From positions 1 to 34,972 of the forward strand of contig JAUSDE010000132.1 of the NCBI GenBank assembly GCA_030650885.1: DNA of 34,972 nucleotides. The letters run 5' to 3'. This document shows positions 20,027-33,927 of this stretch, in pieces. The notes beneath the pieces are model-generated. The model made no database searches. It saw nothing but the letters and a program-made list of their open reading frames with translations, and had not been told where the DNA came from. The stretch comes from Thermoleophilia bacterium (GTDB lineage Bacteria > Actinomycetota > Thermoleophilia > BMS3ABIN01). Made by a program: the position numbers and the translations under genes. Numbering within the stretch: the stretch's first letter is position 1; every line of letters starts with the position of its first letter.

Positions 20027-21073
20027 CTACGCGAAGAATGTCTGCGCCAGATCCCAGAACTCCTGCCGCACCACCTTACGCTCACCAACGGCCACTTCCA
20101 GCGGTACGGCTACTATCGCGTCACCCTGCAGCGCCGCCATCAGGCCGAACTCCTCGCCCTGCACCATCTCCGCGGCCTTGGCTCCGTAGCGCGTCGCCAG
20201 TATGCGGTCATGAGCGGTCGGCGTGCCCCCGCGCTGGATATGCCCCAGCACGGTCGCCCGGGTCTCGAAGCCGGTACGCCGCTCGATCTCCTTGGCCAGG
20301 ATGTTGGCGACTCCGCCCAGTTTCACGTTGCCGAAGGCATCGACCTCGTCGGACTGGGTCACCATCTGCTCTTCGCCTTCCTTGGTGACCAGCTTGGCGC
20401 CCTCACTCACGGCGACGATGCTGAAGCTCTTGTCGCCCGACTGGCGGCGGCGGATGATGTCGCAGGTCTCTTCCACGGAAACATCGTACTCGGGAATCAG
20501 GATGACATCCGCTCCGCCGGCGATACCAGCCATGACCGTGATCCAGCCGGTGTGCCGGCCCATGATCTCCACAACGATGACACGGTCATGGGATTCGGCG
20601 GTAGTATGCAGCCTGTCGATGTTCTCGGTCGCGATCTGCACGGCGGTGTCGAAACCGAATGTGTAGTCGGTGCCGGACAGGTCGTTGTCGATGGTCTTGG
20701 GAACTCCCACCATGTTGAGCGCGTATTTGCCATTGAGCTGATTGGCCACGCCCAGGGTATCGTCGCCGCCGATGGCGATCGTCGCCCAGATCTCGTTCTG
20801 CCTCATGTTATCCACCAGCAGTTCGACGCCGCCCTCGGTCTTCATCGGGTTAGTACGCGATGTCCCCAGGATGGTTCCGCCGCGATGCAGGATGCCGGAG
20901 ATCGCTTTGAGGTCGAGTTTCATATAGTCGTTTTCCATAAGGCCCCGCCAGCCGCCGCGCACACCGACCATCTCATAGCCGGCACGGGTAAGCTTCAAAG
21001 TAGCTGCGCGAATGACCGCGTTAAGCCCCGGGCAGTCACCGCCACCTGTGAGGATCGCAACCTTTTTTGCCAT
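20027..21073 (-). CDS. Phosphofructokinase (paralog 2), motif pattern of a PPi-dependent enzyme
   Basis: ILTGGGDCPGLNAVIRA, IGGDDTLGVA, VGVPKTIDNDL, EIMGRHTGWI, LGHIQRGGTPTAHD. Confidence 0.92.
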   Translation of the reverse strand: MAKKVAILTGGGDCPGLNAVIRAATLKLTRAGYEMVGVRGGWRGLMENDYMKLDLKAISGILHRGGTILGTSRTNPMKTEGGVELLVDNMRQNEIWATIAIGGDDTLGVANQLNGKYALNMVGVPKTIDNDLSGTDYTFGFDTAVQIATENIDRLHTTAESHDRVIVVEIMGRHTGWITVMAGIAGGADVILIPEYDVSVEETCDIIRRRQSGDKSFSIVAVSEGAKLVTKEGEEQMVTQSDEVDAFGNVKLGGVANILAKEIERRTGFETRATVLGHIQRGGTPTAHDRILATRYGAKAAEMVQGEEFGLMAALQGDAIVAVPLEVAVGERKVVRQEFWDLAQTFFA

Positions 21074-21195: not shown

Positions 21196-21384
21196 CTAAC
21201 AGAGAGTCAGCTGCTCCGCCGTCAGGTCGTTGCGCGCGGCGATGACCGCCCGGTCGAAGGTCTTGAGGCAGTTCTCGCAGATGAAACTCTGCCGTTTTTC
21301 CGACCATGATACCGTGGCCTTTTTGTGGCAGCAATGGCATGGATAGCGAGCCGAGGTTCGATATTTTTCCGTGGAATCAGTCAT
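21196..21384 (-). CDS. Small zinc-ribbon-like protein
   Basis: 62-aa ORF MTDSTEKYRTSARYPCHCCHKKATVSWSEKRQSFICENCLKTFDRAVIAARNDLTAEQLTLC with CxxC...CxxC. Confidence 0.5.
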   Translation of the reverse strand: MTDSTEKYRTSARYPCHCCHKKATVSWSEKRQSFICENCLKTFDRAVIAARNDLTAEQLTLC

Positions 21385-21609: not shown

Positions 21610-21637
21610 TTGCAATGTATGCATATGTGCGTACAAT
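21610..21637 (+). promoter_or_regulatory. Candidate promoter for the ncRNA
   Basis: TTGCAA (21610-21615), 16-nt spacer, TACAAT (21632-21637). Confidence 0.6.
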
Positions 21638-21644
21638 GGTTCTA

Positions 21645-21878
21645 TTAGAGCCTCACTGAAGGGTAAAGGTGACCTTCCCTGAGGTCGATTCATTTAATGA
21701 GACAGCAGACAGCCGCGAGCTGTTTTCTGTTTCCTGATTTGCTCGTGCGGGTAAGAGAGACCAGCTCAGATCGACAGCCATGTGCCGTAAAATGTCTTCG
21801 TCTGTGAATCCCGCCCTCCACAGGTGGACGTGCGAGCAAATGTTTTTAGAGCCGCCCGGAAGGGCGGCTCTTTTCTTT
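21645..21878 (+). ncRNA. Candidate stand-alone structured small RNA
   Basis: Promoter upstream, no coding ORF, three self-complementary hairpins (one closed by a perfect 9-bp stem, 21737-21745 with 21833-21841), ending in an intrinsic terminator. Confidence 0.6.
21849..21878 (+). terminator. Rho-independent terminator
   Basis: GAGCCGCCC-GGAA-GGGCGGCTC followed by TTTTCTTT; the T-tract is on the plus side only. Confidence 0.85.
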
Positions 21879-22214: not shown

Positions 22215-22751
22215 TTACTCCGGCTTCCAGTCTTTCAGCTTCTCCCATCGGAAATCAGCCGGCGGCTCGCAGCTGCATTCCACCAGGTTGCGGTTGCCTC
22301 CGCACAGATGACACAGCCCCTTGCAGTCGGACTGGCACAATATCTTGGGCGGCAGCAGTTCCGCCACGGCGTCATGCGCCCACCGTGAGAGGTTCAACAT
22401 GCCGCCTTCCTTGTACCAGAGAGTCGGCTCATCCTCTTCGCCTATTTCCTTGACAGGTGGCAGCTCGGCTTCAAAGAAATCCTCGACGGTCACGTCGAGA
22501 TCCAGAGCGGCCGGCTCCAGGCAGCGCCAGCAGGCGCCTTCCAGCCTGCAGAGGAAGGACATGTTCACGGTATAACCGCGCCCGACATCGATGGCCTTGA
22601 TAACCGCTGTCGCTACGTCCGGGACAAAAACATAGTCCTGCCCAGCCAGATGTAGCGGCGGCAGCCGGACTTCCATTTCAAATACCATGGGATCGCCCGG
22701 TTCGAGGGGAAGCGCCGACAGATCGAGGGAAGTCAGGGTATGGTCAGACAA
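22215..22751 (-). CDS. YceD/DUF177 family protein
   Basis: Immediately upstream of rpmF as usual; cysteine pattern GACWRCLEP, CQSDCKGLCHLCGGNRN. Confidence 0.9.
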   Translation of the reverse strand: MSDHTLTSLDLSALPLEPGDPMVFEMEVRLPPLHLAGQDYVFVPDVATAVIKAIDVGRGYTVNMSFLCRLEGACWRCLEPAALDLDVTVEDFFEAELPPVKEIGEEDEPTLWYKEGGMLNLSRWAHDAVAELLPPKILCQSDCKGLCHLCGGNRNLVECSCEPPADFRWEKLKDWKPE

Positions 22752-33699: not shown

Positions 33700-33719
33700 G
33701 GCACACACGCGCTTTCAAG

Positions 33720-33831
<112 letters not shown>

Positions 33832-33927
33832 AATGCTGATAAACAGCTATTCAGTTTTTACGGCCGGCATCGCAAGCCGCACAAAAAAATAATAACAGAA
33901 AGATGGGGGAAGATTCCAGAGCCTGGT

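Follow-up and report, generated by a model that had tools for sequence, protein, structure and literature searches.

A predicted structured RNA gene between pfk and rpmF in an uncultured actinobacterial family, and two paralogs that share its four-way-junction core

In this study, the region between a 6-phosphofructokinase gene and rpmF was analysed in a window of 34,972 nucleotides, which is the whole stretch of DNA presented above. On the minus strand, pfk (20027-21073) and a conserved small open reading frame, orf62 (21196-21384), lie on one side, and rpmF for ribosomal protein L32 (21907-22086, named from its translation) and a YceD/DUF177 gene (22215-22751) lie on the other. The stretch between them is, judging from its sequence, a previously undescribed, strongly conserved structured non-coding RNA gene on the plus strand, here called type A, with a predicted transcript of about 235 nt (21644-21878), whose 5' end is placed from the -10 box and whose 3' end is placed from the terminator. 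The gene is divergent from orf62/pfk and convergent with rpmF; its antisense placement between minus-strand genes had been pointed out in the first-pass annotation and is also seen in the loci of relatives. The sigma-70-type promoter TTGCAA-N16-TACAAT proposed there is present at 21610-21637 (+), with the -35 box at 21610-21615 and the -10 box at 21632-21637; it is kept as TTGMAA-N16-TACAAT in five of the five genomes of the genus, and other genera display different but well-formed boxes at the same position (TTGTYN-N17-TAWGAT or TTGATA-N16-TAAAAT). The intrinsic terminator (21848-21878, +) was likewise found as described, with a hairpin at 21848-21871 and a T-tract on the plus side only. No open reading frame of at least 60 amino acids overlaps 21645-21876 on either strand, in line with the earlier view that no convincing ORF is present. 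The fold energy of a 246-nt stretch was -95.8 kcal/mol, against -72.6 +/- 5.6 kcal/mol in dinucleotide-preserving shuffles (z -4.1). As a separate observation on the neighbouring gene, the orf62 product (62 aa) carries zinc-ligand-like cysteine pairs, and its comparison with Pfam gave a weak match to a Cas12f1-like TNB domain, below the cut-off of that domain.

The 5' part of the RNA contains two hairpins. The first, CCUCA..GAAGG/CCUUC..UGAGG (21651-21684, +), is conserved within the genus only; the letters of the nested element AGGG/CCCU with AAGG/CCUU that had been read here are present, but its AAGG/CCUU part is lost in relatives and the hairpin just named is the one that is kept. The second (21699-21733, +) displays compensatory changes within the genus, for instance GAGACAG/CUGUUUC versus GAAGCAG/CUGCUUC. 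The ACAGC-CGCGA-GCUGU hairpin of the first-pass annotation proved real, and its stem is longer in relatives, where compensatory changes occur. Downstream lies the four-way-junction core (21737-21841, +). Its closing stem P1 pairs 21737-21749 with 21829-21841 over 13 bp and is supported by covariation. Arm a, GGU-AAGAGAG-ACC (21750-21762, +), has an invariant stem, and its loop ANGAGAG is found in all copies; arm b (21765-21806, +) has a covarying outer stem and an A-specific apical loop, GUGCCGUAAA, at 21782-21791; arm c, CCGCC-CUCCACA-GGUGG (21811-21827, +), has a covarying stem and a loop, YYCCRCA, that occurs in all copies. The core is thus made up of P1, two hairpins whose 7-nt loops are near-invariant, and a third arm that varies between types and in its A version ends in GUGCCGUAAA, nearly invariant among the A copies.

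The covariation support for this core is overwhelming. Across 26 distinct sequences of types A, B and C, 93.1% of the cells of the core model are paired and 132 cells show two-sided changes, against 47 +/- 5 in shuffles, with a covariation score of 0.619 against 0.267 for shuffled and at most 0.166 for slid controls; fitting the alignment to the model gives the structure some advantage. The structure is visible too in alignment A2, made by MAFFT without structure. In P1, 12 of the 13 pairs carry two-sided changes. The outer stem of the large element in the first-pass annotation was right, but the GCGGG/CCCGC pairing placed inside it is unlikely: this register can form in most copies, but it meets an A.C mismatch in six of the six type B copies, and it is disfavoured because closing-stem pairs that change from G-C to A-U contradict it. 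Constant across copies are GGUANGAGAGACCRG, UCCCG and the 7-nt loop YYCCRCA, all of them unpaired or at the junction, and these loops and junction are near-invariant across the paralogs despite completely changed stems. Taken with synteny, promoter and terminator, this covariation supports the earlier proposal of an undescribed structured RNA gene with its own promoter and terminator.

With regard to distribution, 12 genomes, all from one uncultured actinobacterial family, carry a type A ortholog at the same genomic position; wherever a locus is long enough to include both sides, the RNA has orf62/pfk on one side and rpmF-yceD on the other and is encoded on the opposite strand. When 60 relatives were searched with a BLAST-type method, type A matched nearly over its full length within the genus (91-80% identity) and over about 105-160 nt in other genera. 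The public genome collection records that contain the pattern are metagenome-assembled genomes titled Thermoleophilia bacterium or Actinomycetes bacterium. The covariance model R1 gave matches in this family alone out of 399 sampled genomes of the class, and no core was found outside the family among about 380 genomes of the class and about 390 of the phylum. A second model, R2, built from all 27 A, B and C sequences, confirmed 27 copies; elsewhere in the class and phylum samples it revealed nothing credible. Weak model hits in these samples (G127, G328, G661, L066, L067) were not accepted because their count is within chance over hundreds of genomes; one of them (G005:C3:588757-588871, L066; 20.8 bits), with a CGCCCUCCACAGGUGAACG element, could be a weak fourth copy and is probably chance. 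A scan of a viral collection for the core motif returned six matches, all chance, with poor model scores. Two further observations concern individual type A loci. In three loci of genus g3 (L007, L009, L010) a large inverted repeat, GGGGACGTGATGCGGGCC, possibly an inserted repeat element, lies directly 3' of type A, and at the A locus of genome G011 (L014 1660-1930, -) the core was not found, although the stretch between the genes there has an unusually stable fold (z -3.1).

The first-pass annotation had missed the existence of two paralogs that share the core of type A, one of which has a predicted base-pairing partner. A search of genome G000 with R1 revealed two loci beyond A; by the covariance model there are up to three paralogs per genome, A, B and C, and copies of B and/or C were noticed in most family genomes that carry A. 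Type B is found on the same strand as uvrC, between that gene and a YtxH-like ORF, and its terminator precedes uvrC. Type C has a pfkB-type kinase gene on one side and, on the other, a plsX-like gene, named from its translation; in G000 a glycosyltransferase-like gene is also found on the side opposite the kinase. Between core and terminator, type C harbors the invariant segment CUUCAUCCUC, which reads CCCUUCAUCCUC in most copies, and the type B tail in the genus is AUCCACCUCCGCG; type A harbors neither the C nor the B tail segment. At the C locus of G011 (L162 1400-1620), the tail and terminator are kept and no four-way core is detectable.

The C tail CCCUUCAUCCUC is perfectly complementary, over 11-14 nt, to the ribosome-binding sites of two families of secreted-protein genes. 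Within the genus, each genome has 2-13 exact complements of the C segment, whereas the reversed control gives 0-1. The excess is partly coding bias, and in four genomes the C gene itself is included in it; several of these complements fall on ribosome-binding sites of secreted-protein genes. In the first target family, MQVSSKLL-type genes of eight relatives, the seed complement GAGGAUGAAGG stands just upstream of the start codon, beside the Shine-Dalgarno (SD) sequence (G000, G005, G002, G013, G015, G008, G017 and G018); near-matches occur in the orthologs of G001, G010, G011 and G014, and the sequence further upstream of the site differs between genera. These orthologs were fetched by protein similarity only. 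The second family, secreted proteins with an MK start, has the seed complement at the corresponding place before the start codon in other relatives and shows GGAGGAUGAAGGGAUG or its G-U variant GGAGGGUGAAGGGAUG. Both families rank top by duplex energy among 350 SD-bearing leader windows (top energies -27 to -21 against a mean of -11), and the real C seed reached -26 kcal/mol where the best of 30 shuffled seeds reached -24 kcal/mol. The C seed includes an anti-SD stretch, which by itself would produce some complementarity to ribosome-binding sites; the leader set was partly chosen by pattern search and is SD-rich by nature, and the ranking therefore lends support but falls short of proof. The C locus of G011 lacks a detectable core, yet the genome has the target sites, and because tail and targets are kept there without it, the tail rather than the core appears to define the C target. 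The same locus suggests that the core is an accessory element that is acquired or lost whole. On the side of the target genes, the MQVSSKLL leaders at L103 1220-1523 and L106 1220-1524 are long, similar and structured-looking, with no Rfam match. As a separate observation, a domain of about 115 aa (query 347-461) recurs in many ORFs at L180 and other loci, with 6-36 query matches per genome in the family.

Target searches were also carried out for types A and B. For type A, nothing stood out among the 350 fetched leaders with three candidate seeds. For the type B tail, a perfect 12-nt match at a start codon was found in L115 only (1490-1530, G006); this candidate was rejected because B was not found in G006 and the site was not seen at a start codon elsewhere.

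Our preferred reading, in which we place slightly better than even confidence, is that the family, type A included, consists of three paralogous, independently encoded trans-acting sRNAs that base-pair to ribosome-binding sites. Members would pair in trans with the ribosome-binding sites of mRNAs and thereby block translation, while the shared core would be a module that stabilises the RNA or binds a protein or the ribosome. In type C, the tail CCCUUCAUCCUC is predicted to pair with the ribosome-binding sites of the secreted-protein genes and to repress them. As the tag of this sister RNA exactly matches ribosome-binding sites, the family probably switches genes off by binding messages; type A is taken as a regulatory sRNA on account of homology and gene architecture, and it has, at the sequence level, the independent transcription unit of promoter and intrinsic terminator that characterizes trans-acting sRNAs. 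It may work likewise, with candidate seeds in the apical loop of arm b (GUGCCGUAAA), in the loop of arm c (CUCCACA) and in the 5' domain; either an A-specific loop would be the seed, or A would act through whatever the core binds. Against base-pairing speak the missing C-like tail of type A, the lack of a convincing target for it among the fetched leaders, and a core that is built more elaborately than is usual for base-pairing sRNAs. To our knowledge, Hfq-type partners are generally missing in Actinobacteria. We hold it possible, though only tentatively, that the four-way core is a portable module carried by three sRNAs with different tails and 5' domains and absent from the corresponding sRNA locus of at least one relative, which would recruit a chaperone or the ribosome.

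A different interpretation is that type A functions mainly as a scaffold: its core would bind a protein, the ribosome or RNA polymerase, much as 6S or CsrB-type RNAs do, and A would act by this binding instead of base-pairing. The near-invariant loops and junction (GGUANGAGAGACCRG, UCCCG, YYCCRCA), retained while the stems of the paralogs changed completely, would suit such a role, as would the missing tail seed of A; the core has no GGA-in-loop repeats of the CsrB type, however, a canonical 6S gene exists elsewhere in the genome, and the one genome without a core at the C locus still keeps seed and target, so that we regard this function as doubtful, albeit conceivable. A metabolite aptamer resembling a riboswitch, acting in cis on uvrC at the B locus and otherwise detached, appears improbable. 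Its compact multi-branched fold with invariant loops and the position of type B upstream of uvrC on the same strand speak in its favour, yet A and C are encoded opposite to the adjacent genes and have no gene downstream on the same strand, and the terminator stands apart from the core with no competing pairing visible.

The narrow phylogenetic range might also be expected of a structured intergenic or terminator region, or of a decayed or mobile repeat, without any RNA function. Syntenic conservation despite diverging flanks, the conserved promoter and the massive covariation render this very improbable, and the sequence evidence against it is strong. Scarcely credible, finally, is a small protein read from the ATG at 21780 (MCRKMSS...PALHRWT): this sole conserved short frame is open through the core in eight of the 12 orthologs, but it is broken in the other four by frame-shifting indels (L009, L010, L012) or a stop (L007), it runs through the terminator, and no such frame exists in paralogs B and C. 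The small-ORF reading was accordingly rejected.

The covariation behind this undescribed RNA family of an uncultured actinobacterial lineage is unusually strong. The type C tail yields an sRNA-target pair that can be tested directly, and the core common to the three RNAs may help in the search for sRNA-binding partners, about which little is known in this phylum. Should the core be a portable module, it would represent a new structural class of RNA in Actinobacteria.

With reference to known systems, the first-pass annotation had recognised no 6S core, and Rfam 15, with 6S RNA included, gave no match at gathering score for any family in the type A region, nor for the sister RNAs; over the whole window, the only match at gathering scores is an FMN riboswitch (33715-33835, -; 112.5 bits), 12 kb from type A. 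Permissive filters returned matches far below gathering scores, mostly driven by the terminator. Among weak matches, BjrC1505 (RF02356; E 0.012, 25 bits against a gathering score of 50) was rejected, the match lying mainly on the GC-rich terminator. A literature search found no sRNA paper for this uncultured actinobacterial lineage or class. Type A resembles 6S RNA (RF00013) in being stand-alone, structured and of comparable size, but 6S RNA is a long rod with a central bubble, whereas the RNA here has a four-way junction and no RF00013 match in the region; a genuine 6S gene lies at G000:C24:5558-5714. The arrangement of the core is cloverleaf-like, as in tRNA, but a tRNA or tmRNA reading was discarded, with no ARAGORN hit and with YYCCRCA unlike the T-loop consensus. 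The 5' leader position of riboswitches is not seen, A having no downstream plus-strand gene and C no same-strand gene. Sponges of the CsrB/RsmZ type, which need repeated GGA hairpin loops, differ from the core loops ANGAGAG, YYCCRCA and GUGCCGUAAA; CsrB, like LhrC and GsrN below, is a functional comparison only. GsrN of Caulobacter has a conserved C-rich loop that pairs with mRNA and a family-restricted range (PMC5869019), features in which our RNAs are comparable, but GsrN activates katG and no Rfam or other relation to it was found. LhrC of Listeria is a multicopy sRNA whose three redundant UCCC/CU-rich motifs are distributed over two loops and a linker; it is predicted to block an SD (PMC4132741). 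Both LhrC and the family described here comprise several homologous, stand-alone sRNAs in each genome, with unpaired C-rich stretches complementary to Shine-Dalgarno regions (PMC4132741); the latter family differs in its four-way junction, a different tail in each paralog and no Rfam match. The mode inferred for type C would be that of C-rich, SD-masking sRNAs such as LhrC.
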